DNA of 64,000 bases, taken from Plantactinospora mayteni. GTDB lineage: Bacteria; Actinomycetota; Actinomycetes; Mycobacteriales; Micromonosporaceae. Below the pieces are notes generated by a model, which made no database searches, was not told where the DNA came from, and saw only the letters and a list, made by a program, of their open reading frames with translations. Below, piece by piece: positions 1 through 10,657 of this stretch. The stretch's first letter is position 1. Every line of letters begins with the position of its first letter. The stretch lies in NCBI RefSeq assembly GCF_016862935.1, contig NZ_BONX01000053.1, positions 62,001 to 126,000 of the forward strand, given 5' to 3'. A program made the position numbers and the translations under genes.

Positions 1-570
1 GGCAGACTGTTGGGGTCCGTAGTAAAGCCCCTGACACCTACTGCACCAGCGCCAGTTGGGTTGTTCCAGGGTGCCAATTGTCGTGTCGTGGAACAGGTGG
101 TAGTTGTAGCTGGCGGTGAAGTTGTGACCTGAGCCGGCGGGGCACCGGCCCGACGTACCGTTGCCGGCAAAGGCCAGGCCCTGGCACTTGCGGCACCAAC
201 GCCAGTTCGATTGTATGTCTGGTGCGGAGACCGAAGGCTCCCCGAAGAGGAGTTGGTAGTTGCTGCTGGACGAGCCGTTGTGTCCGCCCCCGGATGGGCA
301 AACTCCGTTCGTGCCGTTGAGTATGTAGAACAGCCCGCGGCACTTGCCGCACCACTGCCATCCAGCCTGAACTGCGTAATCCGCCGTGCTTGCCAGGCTC
401 GCGAGCCTGGCGGATGCGGTCGCTGGCCGGCTCGCCGACTCGGTCGATGCGGATGCCGAAGATGCGATGGTGAGGTTGGCGGCGGCCACTCCGATCCCGG
501 CCAACAGGCTGTTCCTCAACAGTACTCGCCGGCTGGTGTTGCCGGTTGTCGGCGGTACGCTGTCTGCCAT
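1..570 (-). CDS. Tat-exported WCxxC-repeat protein, 3' end beyond window
   Basis: The frame is open from ATG at 570 to the window edge (190 codons seen). The N-terminus has a twin-arginine-type signal, TSRRVLLRNSL at residues 12-22, followed by an Ala/Ser-rich stretch, so export is likely. From about residue 70 the protein is built of repeats of roughly 50 residues, each starting W-x-WC-x-[KR]C-x-GL and continuing to GxCPxGxGHN. Two full repeats and the start of a third are visible. The CxxC, third Cys and His of each unit look like a metal or disulfide site. I do not recognise a function; secreted repeat proteins of this look occur in actinomycetes. The gene reads away from the sigma factor upstream of it on the same strand. 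Confidence 0.75.
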   Translation of the reverse strand, partial: MADSVPPTTGNTSRRVLLRNSLLAGIGVAAANLTIASSASASTESASRPATASARLASLASTADYAVQAGWQWCGKCRGLFYILNGTNGVCPSGGGHNGSSSSNYQLLFGEPSVSAPDIQSNWRWCRKCQGLAFAGNGTSGRCPAGSGHNFTASYNYHLFHDTTIGTLEQPNWRWCSRCQGLYYGPQQSA

Positions 571-2895: not shown

Positions 2896-4695
2896 ATGCT
2901 TCCCATCACCAGTGTCACCGGCCGGGCGCCGCTGGCGTCACTGCTGGGCTACGTCCGTCCGCACGCCGGTGGACTGCTCGGCGGGGCGGTCCTGATGTTC
3001 CTCGGCGGGCTGGCCAACCTCGCCCAGCCGATGGTGGTCAAGAGCCTGATCGACGCGCTGACCGGCGGCACCCCGTACCGCGAGCCGATGCTGTTGCTGG
3101 TGTCGCTGCTGATGCTCAGCGTGATCGTCGGGGTCTGGGGCATGTACCTCGTGGAGTTGACCGCCGAGAGCGTCGTGTTGACCGCGCGCCGGCGGCTTGT
3201 CGCCCGGCTGCTGCGCCTGCGTGTCGCGGTCGTGGACGGCGCCGAGCCCGGGGACCTGCTGTCGCGGGCGACGGGAGACACCACGCAACTGCGCGCGGCG
3301 GCCACCAGCAACGTCGTCGACCTGGTGGCGGGGATCCTCCAGATCGCGGGCGCGGTGGTCCTGATGGCGCGGCTCGACGCGGTCCTGCTCGCGGTGGTAC
3401 TGATCGTGCTGCTGTTGCTCGCCGCCGTGACGCTGGCCCTGGTGCCGCGGATCCGCACCGCCGGGGAACAGGCGCAGGAGGCGGTCGGTGGAATGGGAGC
3501 GGTCCTGGAGCGTGCGCTGGGCGCCTTCCGGACGGTCAAGGCCAACGGCGCCGAGGAGCGGCAGGCCGCCGCGGTGCACGCCGCGGCCCGGCAGGCGTGG
3601 CGACGAGGACGGCAGGCGGCGCGGTGGGTCTCGCTGGCCGGCATCGCCACCGGCCTCGCGGTCCAGGTCGCGTTCATCGTGGTACTGGGGGTGGGTGGGG
3701 CGCGGGTCGCCGCTGGCGGTCTCGCCGTGTCGTCGCTGGTGGCCTTTCTGCTGTACCTCTTCTACCTCGGCGGCCCGGTAACCCAACTGGTGGGCGGCTT
3801 TACCGGGCTACAGGCGGGCCTGGCCGCGGTCCGGCGGATCGACGGGATCGCCGAACTCGCCGCCGAGGACCTGGACCGGTCCGTGGACGCCCCGGCGGAC
3901 AGGGCGGCGCCGGTGACGGTGACGTTCCGGGACGTGTCGCTGCGCCATCGGCCCGGCGGGCCGGCGATCCTGGAGCACGTCGACCTGCGGCTGCCGGCGA
4001 CCGGCCTCACCGCCATCGTGGGGCCCTCCGGTGCCGGGAAGACGACCCTGCTGGCACTGATCGAGCGCTTCTACGATCCCACCACCGGGCAGGTCGAGAT
4101 CGACGGCCGCGACGTACGGGAATGGCCCCTCGCCAACCTGCGCGCCCGGATCGGCTACGTCGAGCAGGACGCTCCGGTCCTCTCCGGAACGCTGCGGGAC
4201 AACGTGACGATGGGCTCGGCACACGCGGCGGAGCCGTGGCTGGCGGAGGTCCTCGAACGGACCCGCCTCGTCCCGCTGCTACGGCGGCTGCCGGACGGCC
4301 TCGACACCCTGGTCGGCCATCGCGGTGCGACGCTGTCCGGCGGGGAACGGCAACGCATCGCGATCGCCCGTGCCCTGCTACGCCGACCGGGGCTGCTGTT
4401 ACTCGACGAGCCGACCTCGCAGCTCGACGCCATGAACGAACGTGCGCTCGGTGAGATCGTCGCCGCCGTCTCGCGGACCACCACGGTGCTGATGGTGGCG
4501 CACCGGCTGTCCACGGTGACCCGGGCCGACCGCATCGTCGTGTTGGACGCGGGCCGGGTTCGCGCGGTGGGCACGCACGCCGACCTCGTGGACGGCTGCG
4601 AGCTCTACCGCGGGCTGGCCGCAACCCAGTTGCTCACGGGAGCCGGTACGCAGGTGCAGGTGCCGAGGCAAAGCTCCGATATCGCGGCGATATAG
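2896..4695 (+). CDS. lasD: Lasso peptide ABC exporter (permease-ATPase)
   Basis: This 599-residue half-transporter has the permease first (about residues 15-330, six membrane segments) and the ATPase second: Walker A GPSGAGKTT, signature LSGGERQR, Walker B LLLLDEPTSQLD and switch His in MVAHRLS. In lasso peptide clusters such proteins export the mature peptide and give immunity. ATG 2896 follows GGTGAGGA at 8 nt; the longer frame upstream has no ribosome site. It is the first gene of the operon and is followed 72 nt later by the precursor gene, whose control motif overlaps its 3' end. Confidence 0.9.
   Translation: MLPITSVTGRAPLASLLGYVRPHAGGLLGGAVLMFLGGLANLAQPMVVKSLIDALTGGTPYREPMLLLVSLLMLSVIVGVWGMYLVELTAESVVLTARRRLVARLLRLRVAVVDGAEPGDLLSRATGDTTQLRAAATSNVVDLVAGILQIAGAVVLMARLDAVLLAVVLIVLLLLAAVTLALVPRIRTAGEQAQEAVGGMGAVLERALGAFRTVKANGAEERQAAAVHAAARQAWRRGRQAARWVSLAGIATGLAVQVAFIVVLGVGGARVAAGGLAVSSLVAFLLYLFYLGGPVTQLVGGFTGLQAGLAAVRRIDGIAELAAEDLDRSVDAPADRAAPVTVTFRDVSLRHRPGGPAILEHVDLRLPATGLTAIVGPSGAGKTTLLALIERFYDPTTGQVEIDGRDVREWPLANLRARIGYVEQDAPVLSGTLRDNVTMGSAHAAEPWLAEVLERTRLVPLLRRLPDGLDTLVGHRGATLSGGERQRIAIARALLRRPGLLLLDEPTSQLDAMNERALGEIVAAVSRTTTVLMVAHRLSTVTRADRIVVLDAGRVRAVGTHADLVDGCELYRGLAATQLLTGAGTQVQVPRQSSDIAAI
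4669..4685 (+). promoter_or_regulatory. Lasso operon motif, copy 2 (before precursor gene)
   Basis: CAAAGCTCCGATATCGC differs from the copy at 2794-2810 at two positions. It sits inside the last codons of the exporter gene and is followed by a further CGATATAG. It lies about 85 nt before the precursor start, where a separate promoter for the precursor would be expected. Confidence 0.45.
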
Positions 4696-4767
4696 ATCCA
4701 CCTCGGATAGTGCTCGCACGACGGGCTCGGGACGCCGGAGCCCGACCCACACCGAGGAGGTACATCG

Positions 4768-4902
4768 ATGGTGAAGAAGAAGACCTACGAGCGGCCCACC
4801 CTGCGGAAGGAGGGCACTTTCGCCCGCAAGACGGCCGGCAGCCTGTTCACCAACTGCCGGGAGTCGTTCGTGACCCAGAAGCCGCGCTCGATCTGTAGCT
4901 GA
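4768..4902 (+). CDS. lasA: Lasso peptide precursor, class III-like core
   Basis: This 44-codon gene has a strong ribosome site (CGAGGAGGTACATCG before ATG 4768). The 23-residue leader has the actinobacterial lasso pattern YxxPxLxxxGxFxxxT exactly: Y7, P10, L12, G16, F18, T22. T22 is the penultimate leader residue needed for cleavage before Gly24. The predicted core starts at Gly24: ring GSLFTNCRE, then tail SFVTQKPRSICS. Glu9 is the only acidic residue of the core, so the macrolactam is Gly1-Glu9. Cys7 lies in the ring and Cys20 near the end of the tail. This is the layout of class III lasso peptides such as BI-32169 (one ring-to-tail disulfide). K15 and R17 make loop and tail basic. It is flanked by every biosynthesis gene expected. 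Confidence 0.92.
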   Translation: MVKKKTYERPTLRKEGTFARKTAGSLFTNCRESFVTQKPRSICS

Positions 4903-4942
4903 CGGCACGAGCCCACCGTACCGACGCAGAGGGGTAGGGCCC

Positions 4943-6784
4943 ATGGTGGCCGTTCCGGACCTGGCATCCGGGCTTTCGTGGTTCGTGGCCGTCCCGGACA
5001 CCGACGCCGGTCGCGCGCTCGCCGAGCCGCTCCGGCAGCGGGTCACTGGGCTGCGGATCCTCACCCATGCCTCCGGGCGCCCGTGGATGCTCGGCCGGTG
5101 GGCGGACGACGAGGTGGCGGTGGCCGAGCTGGGCGACCGCCGCCTCGTCGCGCTGGGCGAACACCGCCTCGCAGCGGGCGACCTCGAACGACGCGGTGCG
5201 GGCGCCCGTGACGCCGAGCAGATGTGTGCCGCCCTCCAGGGCCTCCCCGGAAGCTTCCACGCGCTCGCCGCGACCCCGGCGGGGACGGCGGTGCACGGCA
5301 GCCTGTCGGGATACCGGCGGGTCTATTACGTCTCCGTGGGGGAGCAGACCGCCGCCGGCGACCGGGCCGACGTACTGGCCGGGTTCAACGGAGCCCAGGT
5401 CGACGAGGAAGCGCTCGCCCTGCGGATGCTCGCCCCGTACGCCCCCTGGCCGATCTTCTGGCAGCCGGTCTGGCGCGGAGTGCACGCCGTACCTCCGGAC
5501 GAGCGACTGCTGCTGGATCGCGGCGCGGCCCCGCGCACCGTGACCCGATGGCGTGCTCCCGAACCCGTGCTCGACCTGGCCACCGCCGCCGACCGCCTGC
5601 GTCGGGCGCTCTCCGAGGCCGTGGCCGTACGCGCGGGCGCCCACGACGTGATAGCGAGCGACCTGAGCGGGATGGATTCGACGTCGTTGTGCGCGCTGGC
5701 CGTGCACGGCGGGAGCCGGGTGGTAGGACTGACCTGCGTCAGCCCGGACCCGCTCGACGACGACCTGCCGTGGGCCCGCCGGGCCGCCGCCGAACTCGGC
5801 TCGGTGATCCACGAAGTGGTGGACGGCGAGGCGAACCCCCTGCCGTACGAGGGCGTCCTCGGGGCGGAGGACCGCTTCGACGAGCCGACCGCGGCAGTGC
5901 TGTACCGGGCGAGTTTCCTCGCGGTCTCCCGGCGGGCCGCGGCGCACGGTGCTCGTACCCGTCTCACCGGGTTCGGTGGTGACGAACTGCTCACCGCCGA
6001 CCCCATGATGCAACTGACCTTGCTGACAACGCATCCCTGGCAGGCCGTTCGTCACCTTCGGCTGCTGCGCGCGGCATACCGGTGGCGACGCCGGGACACG
6101 CTGCGCGCGGTCGTGGACAGACGCTCGTACGGCCGCTGGATGGCGTCGCTCGGCAAAGACCTCGGCAGAGACCTTGACGGCGCCGGAGCCGCGCACGCGC
6201 GTCCGCTCCTCGGCTGGGGAGCACCAGTCGCGACAGCGCCGTGGCTCACCGCGGATGCCAGGGCAGGGCTGGCCAGGGCACTGCGCGAACGGGCGGTCGG
6301 GGCGGTGCCGCTCTCCGGCGACCGCGGGCTGCACGGCCGGCTCGCGGGGGTGTACGCAGGTGCGGCAAATGCCCGGCACCTCGCCCAGTCGACACGCCGG
6401 GTCGGGGTGACCGCGGCTCTGCCGTACCTCGACGACCAGGTTCTCGAGGCATGCCTGTCGGCGCACCCCGCCCACGTCACCTCACCCCGGGACTACAAGC
6501 CCCTGATCCGCGCCGCCATGCGGGGGGTGGTGCCCCCGGCTCTGCTCGCGCGCGACACCAAGGCCGACACCTCGATCGCCGCCGACCGTGGCGCCCACCG
6601 GCACCGCGACGACCTGCTCGCACTCGCCGACGATTCGCGGCTGGCCGGACACGGCCTCCTAGACGCCGCCGCGCTGCGCGCGGCCGTACGCAATCCGGAC
6701 GACCGCACCTGGTACGACCTCGACCAGACGCTGGCCTGCGAGACCTGGCTGCGCACCGTGGAACCCGCACCCGCTATCCGATGA
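4943..6784 (+). CDS. lasC: Lasso cyclase, asparagine-synthetase-like
   Basis: This 613-residue protein has the two-part layout of lasso cyclases. The N-terminal domain (about 1-190) is like class II glutamine amidotransferases but lacks the N-terminal nucleophile Cys. The asparagine synthetase domain shows the ATP-pyrophosphatase loop SDLSGMDST at about 234-242 and GFGGDELL at about 343-350. It should adenylate the Glu9 side chain of the core and close the bond with Gly1. ATG 4943 follows GAGGGGTAGGG. The gene starts 40 nt after the precursor and 10 nt before the RRE gene. Confidence 0.92.
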   Translation: MVAVPDLASGLSWFVAVPDTDAGRALAEPLRQRVTGLRILTHASGRPWMLGRWADDEVAVAELGDRRLVALGEHRLAAGDLERRGAGARDAEQMCAALQGLPGSFHALAATPAGTAVHGSLSGYRRVYYVSVGEQTAAGDRADVLAGFNGAQVDEEALALRMLAPYAPWPIFWQPVWRGVHAVPPDERLLLDRGAAPRTVTRWRAPEPVLDLATAADRLRRALSEAVAVRAGAHDVIASDLSGMDSTSLCALAVHGGSRVVGLTCVSPDPLDDDLPWARRAAAELGSVIHEVVDGEANPLPYEGVLGAEDRFDEPTAAVLYRASFLAVSRRAAAHGARTRLTGFGGDELLTADPMMQLTLLTTHPWQAVRHLRLLRAAYRWRRRDTLRAVVDRRSYGRWMASLGKDLGRDLDGAGAAHARPLLGWGAPVATAPWLTADARAGLARALRERAVGAVPLSGDRGLHGRLAGVYAGAANARHLAQSTRRVGVTAALPYLDDQVLEACLSAHPAHVTSPRDYKPLIRAAMRGVVPPALLARDTKADTSIAADRGAHRHRDDLLALADDSRLAGHGLLDAAALRAAVRNPDDRTWYDLDQTLACETWLRTVEPAPAIR

Positions 6785-6794
6785 GGGAAAGACC

Positions 6795-7055
6795 ATGACC
6801 TGGAAGCTCCCCGACCGGGTGTCCTGGACACCGACCGAATACGGCGGCGTACTCCTGGACTCGACATCCGGCCAGTACTGGACGCTCAACCCGACCGCGG
6901 CGACGGTGCTCGCCTCGCTGCTGGCCGACGGGAACCCCGAGTACGCGGCGGCACGACTCGCGGAGGAGTTCGACGGCGACCCGGCGGTGATGGCCGCGGA
7001 CGTGCCCGGGCTGATCGCCGACCTGGAGGCGGCCGGACTGGTGGTCGCGGGGTGA
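6795..7055 (+). CDS. lasB1: Lasso RRE protein (PqqD family, B1)
   Basis: This 86-residue stand-alone PqqD-like RiPP recognition element has the family pattern, with GGVLLDSTSGQYWTLNPTA followed by a helical C-terminal half. In lasso pathways it binds the leader, contacting the Tyr/Pro region, and presents the precursor to the protease. Its TGA overlaps the GTG of the protease gene by 4 nt, so the two are translationally coupled. Confidence 0.92.
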   Translation: MTWKLPDRVSWTPTEYGGVLLDSTSGQYWTLNPTAATVLASLLADGNPEYAAARLAEEFDGDPAVMAADVPGLIADLEAAGLVVAG

Positions 7056-7492
7056 CCTCGGAGCAGGTACTCAGGCACGACCCCGGGCGCTTGGGTCTGC
7101 GGCGGCGGCTGGTCGTGCGCGCGGTCGTCGCCGTGGCCAGGCTGCTGGCCGTGCAGCGGCCCGATCGCATTCATCGGGTACTGCGGCGCCTGAGCCGTGG
7201 CGCGCGTCCGGCGAGCCGGGCGGAGGCGGCCACCGCACGCCGGGACACCGTCATGACCAGCGCTTTCTGTAGCGGTCCACTCGGCTGCCTGCCGCGTTCG
7301 ATTGCCACCGTACTGCTGTGCCGGCTCGACGGCCGTTGGCCCGTGTGGCACGCCGGCGTACGGCGGTATGCGCCGTTTGGTGCGCACGCCTGGGTCGCGG
7401 TGGACGGTGTCGCGGTGGACGAGCCGTACCCCGACGACTTTCACATCCCGCTGCTGACCGTCGCCGCCGAGAACCGACGGGAACTCGGATGA
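7052..7492 (+). CDS. lasB2: Lasso leader peptidase (transglutaminase-like, B2)
   Basis: This 146-residue protein has the Cys-His-Asp triad of the B2 family: Cys79 in GCLPRS (the usual CLxRS), His112 in GAHAWV and Asp118 in AVDG. It should cleave the precursor after Ala23. The start is GTG 7052 inside the end of the RRE gene. Its stop overlaps the ATG of the next gene (ATGA), so the redox genes downstream belong to the same operon. Confidence 0.92.
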   Translation: MTSEQVLRHDPGRLGLRRRLVVRAVVAVARLLAVQRPDRIHRVLRRLSRGARPASRAEAATARRDTVMTSAFCSGPLGCLPRSIATVLLCRLDGRWPVWHAGVRRYAPFGAHAWVAVDGVAVDEPYPDDFHIPLLTVAAENRRELG

Positions 7493-8031
7493 GCGCCGCG
7501 CTCCCGTACCTCGCCCTCGTCTGCCGCGGCGCCGTTGTCGTGGTGTTCGCGCTCTCCGCGGTCAGCAAGCTTCGCAGCCGGGCGGCCTACGCCCGGTTTC
7601 GCCGTTCCACCCGCCTGTTGACGGGCCTGCCGGAGGCACCGGCCTCGGCGCTCGCCCGGCTCGTCATCGCCGGCGAGGTGACCGTGGCGGTGACCGCGTC
7701 CGCCGGCCCGCTATCCTCCGCTGGACTCGGGGTGGCCGGCGTGCTGCTGTGCGGCTTCACCTGGGCGCTGGCGCGGTCCCCGGAGTCCGGGCAGGCGCTG
7801 GAGTGCGGCTGCTTCGGCTCGTCGGTCTCCGCCACCCGCCGCACCGCCATCGCCCGCAACGTCCTGCTGCTGGGCCTGGTGATCGGTGGACTCGTCAGCA
7901 CCCACGCCGCGACCGGGGCCGGATCGATGCGCTGGGACACCATGCTGGTCTGCGCGGTGGGCGCCGTCGCGCTGGCCGCTTTCATCACCCGCCTGCACGA
8001 GATCACGTCTCTGTTCACCGCTCGACTGTGA
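7489..8031 (+). CDS. MauE/DoxX-like membrane redox protein
   Basis: This 180-residue protein has four predicted membrane segments and a CGCFG motif (Cys106, Cys108) on a loop, as in MauE-type and VKOR-like DoxX relatives that pass electrons for disulfide formation. It overlaps the protease gene by 4 nt and is followed 9 nt later by a thioredoxin-like gene. In this cluster the likely job is to oxidise the thioredoxin-like partner, which would form the Cys7-Cys20 bond of the lasso peptide. Redox genes of this sort are known beside other disulfide-bonded lasso peptides (siamycin/MS-271 type); the role here is inferred. Confidence 0.8.
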   Translation: MSAALPYLALVCRGAVVVVFALSAVSKLRSRAAYARFRRSTRLLTGLPEAPASALARLVIAGEVTVAVTASAGPLSSAGLGVAGVLLCGFTWALARSPESGQALECGCFGSSVSATRRTAIARNVLLLGLVIGGLVSTHAATGAGSMRWDTMLVCAVGAVALAAFITRLHEITSLFTARL

Positions 8032-8040
8032 GGCCGCGTC

Positions 8041-8607
8041 ATGTCCGTGCTCGTCGCCGTCGTCGTGCTCAGCAGCGCCGTGTGCGCGTTCAACACCGCG
8101 CTGCTGGTCGCGGTCGTGCGGCGCCTGCGTTACCAGTCCGAGCTGCTGTCCGAGGTGGAGAGGCAGGGCGTTCCCGCGCGTGCCCTTCCGCGCGGTGACA
8201 CCGTGGGCGACTTCCTCGGGTACGACACCCGTGGCCGGGCGGTCACCCCGGACGTACCGGCGGCCACGCTGGTCGGCTTCTTCAGTCCCACCTGCGCGTC
8301 CTGCCGTCGTGAGCGCGCCCGGTTCCGGGCGGTGGCGGCGCGGTGGCCCGGCGGTTCCGAGCGGGTGCTCGCCGTGGTGACCGGGCCGGACGCGTCGGCC
8401 CGGTTCCTCGATCGGCTCGACCCGGTGGCCCGGATCGTCGTCGACGCGGACAACGCGATGCGTCACGCGTTCGGTATCGAGGGATTCCCGGCGATCTTCG
8501 TCCTGGCGGAGTCCGGGTGCCTGAGCTGGACCGGGATACATGCCGATGCGGTGCCGGGCCTGGCCGCAGACCCGGTCGCCCCGCAGCCGCGCCGACCGCA
8601 CCCATGA
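8041..8607 (+). CDS. Thioredoxin-like disulfide oxidoreductase (MauD/TlpA-like)
   Basis: This 188-residue protein has an N-terminal membrane anchor (residues 2-27) and an extracytoplasmic thioredoxin fold. The active site is FSPTCASC with Cys85 and Cys88, and the cis-proline is in EGFPAIFVL. MauD/MauE pairs act in disulfide maturation of methylamine dehydrogenase. No such enzyme is encoded here, so the pair is more likely dedicated to the lasso peptide. It is the last gene of the operon and is convergent with the next ABC transporter. Confidence 0.85.
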   Translation: MSVLVAVVVLSSAVCAFNTALLVAVVRRLRYQSELLSEVERQGVPARALPRGDTVGDFLGYDTRGRAVTPDVPAATLVGFFSPTCASCRRERARFRAVAARWPGGSERVLAVVTGPDASARFLDRLDPVARIVVDADNAMRHAFGIEGFPAIFVLAESGCLSWTGIHADAVPGLAADPVAPQPRRPHP

Positions 8608-8698: not shown

Positions 8699-10657
8699 TC
8701 ACGAACTTCGCTGGACGGGGGCCGGTGGCGACTCGGCCAGGTAGCCGGCGGCCTGTAGGTCGAACAGCTCCCGGTAGAGACCGTCCTGCGCCATCAGGTC
8801 TTCGTGGTTGCCCTGCTGGACGAGTCGCCCCTCCCGCATGACGTAGATCTGGTCGGCGTGCCGCACGTTGGCGAGCCGGTGCGTGATCAGCACGATCAGC
8901 CGGTCGGGGTGCCGACGCAGGTGCTGGAACATGGCGTGCTCGGCCCTCGCGTCCAGGGCGGCGGAGGGTTCGTCGCAGACCAGGAGCCGGGCGTCCCGAT
9001 AGAGACTCCGGGCGGCGACCAGCCGCTGCCACTGGCCGCCGGACAGGTCGTGACCGTTCTTGAACTCGCGGTCGAGCAGGGTGTCGTAGCCGTACGGCAG
9101 TTCGAGCACCATGTCGTGGGCGGCAGCCGCTCGGGCAGCATCCTCCATGCTCGGCCCCGGCCCGTTCGCCGGCCGGTCGTGCCGGCCGATGAGGATGTTC
9201 TGCCCAGCGGTGAACGGGAACTTCCACCAGTCCTGGGTCATCACCGCGACGTGCGAGCCGAGGAGTTGCGGGTCGAGCTCGGCAGTGTCGGCGCCGTCCC
9301 AGCGGATGGTGCCGGAGGTCGGTTGGTACAGGCCGGCGATGAGCTTGGCGAGAGTGGTCTTGCCGGACCCGTTCTCGCCGACCAGGGCGATCACCTGACC
9401 ACGCCGGACGGTGAGGCTGACCTCGTCCACCGCCGGGTTGTCGGTGTCCGGGTAACGCAGGCTCACCCGGTCGAGTTCGATGACGTCGAACCCGTCGATG
9501 GGTTGGCCGCCGCCCGGCCGGGTCCGGCCCCGGGCCCGCTCGAGGAAGTCACGGTAGTCCTGGTAGTAGAGGGCGTCCTCGTACAGCGAGTTGGTCGCGA
9601 AGACGGCGATTCCGAGACTGGAATGGGCGGTCTGCAACGCCAGCAGCGCGGTCGCGGCGGCGGCGAGCGCGACCCAGCCGCCCAGCAGCAGACCGCCGAG
9701 GACGGCGTAGACGGCGAAGCTGGCCAGCCCGGCGACGGAGGCGCCGAACACCCGGGTGGTGGTCTGCGAGCGGACCAGGTCGAGGTCGGCCTCGGTCTCG
9801 GCGTTCATCATCCGCCGGTACTCGCCGAGGAGGAACTCGCGCATCTGGTAGGCGCGAACCTCGGCGGCGGTGTGCCGGTTCGCCATCAGGGTGGCGAGCA
9901 TCCACATCCGGCGGCGGCGGGTGATCCGGGCCAGCAGGTTGAGGTACTGCCGGCGGGCGATCCGCACCGCGGTGATCGCCTCGGGCACGGCCGCGAGCAG
10001 GAGGCAGGGCAGCAGGATCGGCTGGATCACCGCGACCGCGGCGGCGGTGGCGAGCACCCCGACCACCCCGGTGATGAGGTTGACGGTGTTGTCGACGATC
10101 GAGGCCGCCTCGCGCATCCCACGGTCCCGGGCGCGGTCCATCTCCTCGGCGAACCCGGCATCGTCGAACGCCGCCAGCTCGACCGCCGTGGTCGCCTCGA
10201 ACATCCGCAGTTCCACCCGGTAGTTGATCTGGGGTACGAGCCGGGCCTGGGCCCAGCCGGCGGCGATGGTCAGGCCGCCCTTGGCCATCACGGCCGCCGC
10301 CGCGACCAGGAGCGCGGGCAGGGCCGCGCGTACCCGGTCCGGGGTGGGCCCGGCGGCGAACAGTTCGGTCAGCACGGTGGTCGTGGCCAGCAGCCCGAAG
10401 GTGGTCATCACCCCGGCGGCGATGTTCAGGCCGATCGACGCGACGGTGTCCCGGCGGCTGGTGGCCCACGCCACCCCGATCGCCTCCCGCACGAGGCGAG
10501 GCAGGCGCCGGGCCACCGCCCAGAAGCTCGTCTGTGCGATCTCTCGTGCGTGGTGCATCCAGTCGGGGTCCTCCAGCTCCGGCAATGCCGACTCGTCGAC
10601 GCCGTCGCTGGCGTCATTCTGGTCCGAGGACTGACCGGGGCGAGTAACTGTCTGCAC
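8699..10657 (-). CDS. ABC transporter, permease-ATPase fusion
   Basis: This 652-residue half-transporter has a 50-residue acidic N-terminal extension, six membrane segments (about 75-330) and an ATPase with Walker A GENGSGKTT, signature LSGGQWQRL and Walker B LLVCDEPSAALD. The start is GTG 10657 after GAGGAGGTTGC. It is an exporter-type protein of unknown substrate. It is convergent with the lasso operon, ending 91 nt from it, and divergent from an ECF sigma factor. It might be a second lasso immunity pump, but nothing in the sequence links it to that operon. Confidence 0.88.
   Translation of the reverse strand: MQTVTRPGQSSDQNDASDGVDESALPELEDPDWMHHAREIAQTSFWAVARRLPRLVREAIGVAWATSRRDTVASIGLNIAAGVMTTFGLLATTTVLTELFAAGPTPDRVRAALPALLVAAAAVMAKGGLTIAAGWAQARLVPQINYRVELRMFEATTAVELAAFDDAGFAEEMDRARDRGMREAASIVDNTVNLITGVVGVLATAAAVAVIQPILLPCLLLAAVPEAITAVRIARRQYLNLLARITRRRRMWMLATLMANRHTAAEVRAYQMREFLLGEYRRMMNAETEADLDLVRSQTTTRVFGASVAGLASFAVYAVLGGLLLGGWVALAAAATALLALQTAHSSLGIAVFATNSLYEDALYYQDYRDFLERARGRTRPGGGQPIDGFDVIELDRVSLRYPDTDNPAVDEVSLTVRRGQVIALVGENGSGKTTLAKLIAGLYQPTSGTIRWDGADTAELDPQLLGSHVAVMTQDWWKFPFTAGQNILIGRHDRPANGPGPSMEDAARAAAAHDMVLELPYGYDTLLDREFKNGHDLSGGQWQRLVAARSLYRDARLLVCDEPSAALDARAEHAMFQHLRRHPDRLIVLITHRLANVRHADQIYVMREGRLVQQGNHEDLMAQDGLYRELFDLQAAGYLAESPPAPVQRSS

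Follow-up and report, generated by a model that had tools for sequence, protein, structure and literature searches.

Few lasso peptides carry a single disulfide between the ring and the threaded tail. Two, BI-32169 and 9401-LP1, are named in a 2022 review, which describes very little as known about how they are made (PMC9266682). BI-32169, of class III (GLPWGCPSDIPGWNTPWAC), starts with Gly1, closes its ring on Asp9 and has Cys6 in the ring and Cys19 in the tail (PMC12427821, Table 1); its gene cluster had not been identified as far as was known to the review. 9401-LP1, a type III peptide from Streptomyces with the core AFGPCVENDWFAGTAWIC, begins with Ala, joins Cys5 to Cys18 by one ring-to-tail disulfide with a spacing of 13 and gained 2 Da on treatment with DTT (PMC5974421), and its cluster comprises A–D and no further genes (PMC9266682). 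Class I peptides such as sviceucin, aborycin and MS-271 have four cysteines including Cys1, two bridges, a ring Cys7 and an Asp acceptor at position 9. Their clusters usually include genes for a DoxX-type membrane protein and a thioredoxin-fold protein, annotated as DsbA in the case of AboF (PMC6409603), although the class I arcumycin cluster is described without the pair; the characterised class I peptides covered in that review all come from Streptomyces (PMC9266682). Oxidation at the outer face of the membrane by such a pair has been speculated for class I lasso peptides. A part in forming the disulfides of methylamine dehydrogenase has likewise been proposed, speculatively, for MauE, which has also been discussed in other candidate RiPP families (PMC7794033).

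We examined a window of 64,000 nucleotides, which is the whole stretch of DNA analysed here, in which positions 2896–8607 hold a set of seven genes, all on the + strand and all open: exporter, precursor, cyclase, B1, B2, a MauE-family protein and a thioredoxin-like protein (Table 1). A sequence-only reading of this DNA had placed a 44-codon precursor gene between an exporter and a cyclase, which agrees with our translation and gene assignments; the MauE-family and thioredoxin-like genes are two members of the cluster that it did not include. Several features mark the set as a lasso cluster: the precursor bears a leader with Thr(-2), B1 and B2 both score above their NCBIfam cut-offs, and the cyclase is asparagine-synthase-like. 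The cyclase also matches NF033561 (albusnodin/ikarugamycin family macrolactam cyclase) at 2.8e-67, with 227.6 bits against a curated cut-off of 300. This score, together with the thioredoxin score below the Pfam cut-off, counts against the explanation that we favour below. The start of the exporter was taken from an alignment to relatives; its longest ORF begins at 2674. The stop codon of B1 overlaps the start of B2 (GTGA), that of B2 overlaps the start of MauE (ATGA), and 9 bases separate the end of MauE from the start of the thioredoxin gene. This overlapping or nearly touching arrangement suggests a single transcript from C to the thioredoxin gene. The host genome contains a single B2 match.

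Table 1. Features of the predicted lasso cluster, numbered from the first position of the window.
Feature	Position	Strand	Product and basis
ABC exporter (probable)	2896–4695	+	599 aa, membrane and ATPase domains; PF00664 2.7e-36, PF00005 4.4e-33
Likely ribosome-binding site, GGAGG	4756–4760	+	read from the sequence; ATG 7 nt downstream
Precursor ORF	4768–4902	+	44 aa: 23-residue leader MVKKKTYERPTLRKEGTFARKTA plus core GSLFTNCRESFVTQKPRSICS
Leader peptide	4768–4836	+	MVKKKTYERPTLRKEGTFARKTA, 23 aa; translation, PF19397 match
Core and stop codon	4837–4902	+	GSLFTNCRESFVTQKPRSICS, 21 aa; predicted ring Gly1–Glu9
Codon of core Cys7	4855–4857	+	
Codon of core Glu9	4861–4863	+	
Codon of core Cys20	4894–4896	+	
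Lasso cyclase (C), asparagine-synthase type	4943–6784	+	613 aa; PF00733 (Asn_synthase) 2.2e-31, above cut-off
B1, PqqD-like RiPP recognition element (RRE)	6795–7055	+	86 aa; NF033530 5.1e-25, above cut-off; PF05402 2e-13
B2 leader peptidase	7052–7492	+	146 aa; NF033537 4.3e-29, above cut-off; PF13471 3.8e-24
MauE-family membrane protein	7489–8031	+	180 aa, CxCxG motif; PF07291 6e-21, above cut-off
Membrane-anchored thioredoxin-like protein	8041–8607	+	188 aa, CASC motif; PF08534 (Redoxin) 2.3e-4, under cut-off

Structure models were consistent with the assignments of the last two genes. The MauE model is almost all-helical, with a mean pLDDT of 76.9; a PDB sequence search with this protein returned one chance match (E 0.41). 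The model of the last gene product (mean pLDDT 78.6) has a long N-terminal helix followed by a thioredoxin-like domain, and its best Foldseek matches are thioredoxins, StoA, CcmG, ResA and TlpA (best E 3.1e-7, with a TM-score of 0.53 when normalised by query length and 0.65 when normalised by target length; across the best matches these scores are about 0.5 and mostly 0.6–0.7, respectively). As modelled, this protein is a TlpA/ResA-like thioredoxin rather than one of the DsbA type. Of the genes flanking the set, an ABC gene at 8699–10657 (-) was rejected as a member, because in the corresponding stretches of eight relatives (L019–L026) only the exporter cross-matches it, at 31–34% identity in six of the eight loci. 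The sigma factor at 808–1728 had no match in these same stretches of 13–17 kb.

The precursor has the makings of a lasso substrate. Its leader shows Tyr(-17), Pro(-14), Leu(-12), Gly(-8), Phe(-6) and Thr(-2), the last three of which are listed for lariatin, sviceucin, siamycin I and aborycin (PMC4960549), and PF19397 (DUF5972) matches residues 4–32, spanning the leader and the ring, at E 1e-10 and above cut-off; the lasso leader pattern claimed in the sequence-only reading is thus borne out. None of the NCBIfam models matched the precursor, and searches of PDB sequences and of plasmids with it returned no match. As that reading also proposed, the core is of 21 residues, begins with Gly and offers one possible ring acceptor: Glu9 is its sole acidic residue, and lies within the core positions 7–9 at which an Asp or Glu is required. 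Cys7 falls in the predicted ring and Cys20 in the tail, with no other cysteines. The product, with its 21 residues, one ring and one disulfide, would have a mass of 2339.115 Da by our calculation, in agreement with the earlier value of about 2339.12 Da; the peptide encoded in G177 is isobaric with it.

One cysteine in the ring, one in the tail and no others is the arrangement of class III, the disulfide itself being predicted. Class I was rejected because the core has two cysteines and Gly1 rather than four cysteines including Cys1, and class IV, in which both cysteines lie in the tail, was rejected because Cys7 precedes the acceptor Glu9. A close formal likeness is to BI-32169, which shares Gly1, an acceptor at position 9 and, since its cysteines are Cys6 and Cys19, the spacing of 13 residues that had been claimed for the pair. 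The two differ in the acceptor (Asp9 versus Glu9 here), in the cysteine positions (Cys6/Cys19 versus Cys7/Cys20 here) and in cores that are otherwise unrelated. With class I the candidate shares the ring Cys7 and the position of the acceptor, as well as the gene trait described above, represented here by MauE and the modelled thioredoxin-like protein, which is TlpA/ResA-like where AboF is annotated as DsbA. Other resemblances are more local. Lariatins A and B also have a Gly-Ser start, an Arg-Glu ring end and Lys-Pro in the tail, but have an 8-residue ring and no cysteine; production of lariatin A needs Gly1, Arg7, Glu8 and Trp9 (PMC4960549), whereas the present family keeps Gly1, Arg8 and Glu9 without exception and has Ser at position 10. 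9810-LP has the same leader end, G-x-F-x-x-K-T-A before Gly1, and a basic residue preceding Glu9, and SRO15-2005 has nearly the same core as 9810-LP; both differ from the peptide described here in being 16-residue class II peptides with no cysteine. Among loci related to these two, L086 had no adjoining MauE or thioredoxin gene, and the sequence of L087 ends just past B2, its genome (G978) giving no MauE match at all.

That the peptide belongs to a family escaped the sequence-only reading. We searched 354 genomes of the bacterial family with the precursor, and 15 matched at E ≤ 0.1. Eight, including the host and spanning three genera, matched strongly (E 4e-17 or better), and a ninth, G054, matched at 7e-5; the leader motif was absent from the loci read for the six weak matches (E 0.018–0.097). 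The cores of the eight orthologues follow the consensus GSLFT[NS]CRES[FY]VTQKP[RAK][SA][IV]C[SN], in which Gly1, Cys7, Arg8, Glu9 and Cys20 are invariant in all eight. The order A-C-B1-B2-MauE-thioredoxin is kept in 8/8 orthologous loci; the exporter lies 5' of the precursor in six of these, the host's included, and the stretches retrieved for L023 and L025 showed no exporter gene. In the related cluster of G054 (L026) the exporter is placed after the thioredoxin gene. The CxCxG motif of MauE and the CxxC motif of the thioredoxin are invariant in 9/9 members of the clade, comprising the eight orthologues and G054. Across 28 pairs, pN/pS (Nei–Gojobori) was 0.23 for the core and 0.54 for the last 17 leader residues, and by this measure purifying selection is stronger on the core than on the leader. 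The predicted peptide is therefore a member of a conserved family. The family models and the invariance of Cys7, Glu9 and Cys20 support the earlier assignment to a class III-like lasso peptide, and the PF19397 match, the exporter and cyclase neighbours and the near-identical peptides encoded in seven other genomes indicate that the precursor is more than a chance ORF. A chance ORF, or a decayed or silent locus, is the account to which we give the least credence of all: seven open genes and purifying selection on the core across three genera argue against it.

The limits of the family were sought in wider samples. An order-wide precursor search of 397 genomes returned the host and two weak, leader-only matches, and a class-wide search of 394 genomes returned the host and 18 genomes with weak matches; of 19 class-wide loci read, 10 showed the leader motif, one of them probably spuriously (L083), and one, G916, has both a ring and a tail cysteine. 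A limited number of candidates was scored per genome in both samples. Among these 397 and 394 genomes, none from outside the bacterial family showed a near-identical core, but the samples were even and missed the seven known orthologues as well, so this result does not demonstrate absence. A pattern scan of named genomes gave 20 pattern matches and one confirmed locus, L030 of Micromonospora inaquosa LB39.

The G054 cluster bears on where the leader is cut. It has two precursors, the first with the core GTIRGCAKELIFARPPYLCS, which contains Cys6, Cys19 and Glu9. The second precursor, at L026:7695–7841 (+), has the core GSINPFCSRENWWSVKPYAGGCVG, with Cys7, Cys22 and Glu10 as its only acidic residue. 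With the usual cleavage this single case may give a 10-residue ring, larger than the reported 7–9. Cleavage one residue later, after Gly, would turn it into a 9-residue ring, and would give the peptide of the window an 8-residue ring starting from Ser, the ring size of lariatin, and a mass of 2282.094 Da. Ring sizes from 7 to 9 residues are documented (PMC8498205). We nonetheless consider such a shift very unlikely, as Thr-Ala stands directly before Gly in 10/10 aligned precursors of the group and the change of Thr(-2) to Ala abolished lariatin production (PMC4960549).

We next compared the distribution of the MauE–thioredoxin pair with that of cysteine in lasso cores. A search with B2 gave 61 matches in the 354 genomes, of which 44 were examined. 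These comprised every one of the 40 with E 4.4e-18 or better, plus 4 from the 21 with weaker scores; at three of those 4 no cyclase was seen. The 40 strong loci consist of the nine of this clade and 31 others. A precursor was recognised in 24 of the 31 (all except L042, L051, L056–L059 and L061); 20 of these cores are free of cysteine and four contain two or more. The pair was present in 10/40 strong loci, all ten Cys-bearing: 9/9 of the clade and L041. It was found in 0/20 Cys-free loci, in 0/7 loci without a recognised precursor and in 0/3 of the other cysteine-containing loci, namely L037 (Cys8 and Cys19), L043 (both cysteines in the tail) and L060 (three cysteines, with an atypical leader). 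Including L085 of G916, four Cys-bearing loci thus lack the pair. For the redox check, every ORF was scanned with profiles and 41 genomes were searched for MauE; a check for CxxC motifs covered 130 called genes in 30/32 loci, and a DsbA-like gene that escaped gene calling may have gone unseen. MauE genes are common, occurring in 39/41 genomes at E ≤ 0.001, yet none lay within 10 kb of B2 outside the ten loci; the nearest, in G028 and G038, were 13–15 kb away when positions were compared by eye. The MauE frame of L041 also matches L037 (3.5e-14), where PF07291 found no MauE, and this match probably stems from the exporter-like upstream part of the L041 open frame. In a cyclase tree of 43 rows, nine pair-bearing clusters form one clade (100/100) and L041 falls elsewhere, so the pair was acquired twice, not ten times; 23 of 500 label shuffles on this tree needed as few changes.

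Three loci from these surveys deserve separate description. L041 (4630–4800, +; G295) encodes a class I-like precursor with the core CTPWGDCRDFLGCARAPICI, whose cysteines are Cys1, 7, 13 and 19, and has MauE and DsbA-like genes at 9168–10459; its thioredoxin matches PF13462 and PF01323 and is DsbA-like, as opposed to the TlpA/ResA type in the window. G295 shares genus group g24 with G191, one of the eight genomes with strong precursor matches. L085 (8198–8458, -; G916, from another family of the class) encodes the core GMFYASCKEFWSRRLCI, a relative of 9810-LP in which Cys7 replaces Tyr7 and Cys16 lies in the tail, with no adjoining redox pair; a single bridge between ring and tail may have arisen independently here. 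L037 (9724–9921, -; G312) encodes an acidic candidate core, GLDTDEPCEDWFWGEPLWC, and the redox pair was not found beside it.

From the observed genes, families, conservation and co-occurrence we infer the enzymatic steps, the topology and the disulfide with its place and timing. The interval 2896–8607 is very probably a complete lasso cluster, with a ring from Gly1 to Glu9 and a MauE–thioredoxin pair that would bridge Cys7 and Cys20 or aid release. Along the established lasso pathway, B1 would bind and present the leader, B2 would cleave after Ala(-1) and before Gly1, C would link the Gly1 amine to the Glu9 side chain around the threaded tail to give a 9-residue ring, and the ABC protein would export the lasso product. 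The anchored thioredoxin, held oxidised by MauE, would then bond Cys7 to Cys20 at the membrane's outer face and lock the thread; alternatively, the last step may be help from the pair in releasing the oxidised peptide. The loci are best read as a conserved class III-like lasso family in which one bridge from ring to tail goes together with redox genes like those of class I. Counting against this explanation are that lasso disulfides can arise in clusters lacking dedicated genes, as in those of 9401-LP1 and, for the pair, arcumycin, that the pair-bearing clusters represent two events, with 23 of 500 label shuffles clustering as strongly, and that four Cys-bearing loci do without the pair.

The last step is where a real contender arises. 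The lasso may be made as described, with the disulfide forming spontaneously and the pair serving export or release only, a reading that overlaps with the one above and that we hold to be quite possible. Class I peptides were still produced after deletion of mslE, mslF or sviF: without sviF, sviceucin was made but found in mycelia only, and without mslE or mslF the yield fell, with thiol intermediates not seen according to the same review (PMC9266682). Because these deletions keep the disulfide products and loss of sviF retains the peptide, a role in release is a serious rival, and G916, with ring and tail cysteines and no pair, is in keeping with it. The absence of the pair from all 20 Cys-free loci, on the other hand, ties it to cysteine and not to lasso export in general. 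It is improbable that Cys7 and Cys20 are instead free, metal-binding or linking two molecules. Sequence alone is compatible with these states, but the invariance of both residues in the orthologues and the BI-32169-like spacing argue for an intramolecular bond, as does aborycin of class I, with ring Cys7, an acceptor at 9 and a Cys7–Cys19 bond (PMC6409603). A further reading, possible though doubtful, is a distinct lasso lineage in which a dedicated MauE and TlpA-like pair, acquired independently of that of class I, would install or export a single ring-to-tail bridge, with a core kept near constant for a specific target and perhaps a 10-residue ring in G054.

This peptide has probably not appeared in print before. 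In line with the novelty proposed in the sequence-only reading, the core is absent from the table of known lasso peptides in PMC12427821 and from the 5.39 million papers searched, where six fragments of the family cores found no match; curated precursor databases and subscription journals lay outside that scope, and the peptide may be listed there. The same literature contained no paper joining DUF5972 with a lasso peptide. Judged by sequence, the cluster is real, complete and conserved, and threading, disulfide, activity and expression are predictions. Eight natural variants, almost the same in sequence and each in a cluster with the conserved redox pair, now add to the few single-bridge ring-to-tail lasso peptides, and whether lasso disulfides need enzymes becomes directly testable where there is only one bridge. 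That the core is basic and so strongly conserved suggests that the peptide has a specific target. Elsewhere in the window, the coding sequence at positions 1–570 (-) continues beyond the edge of the window; its product begins with an Arg-Arg signal-like segment, contains three W-x-W-C-x-x-C-x-G-L-type units and looks secreted.
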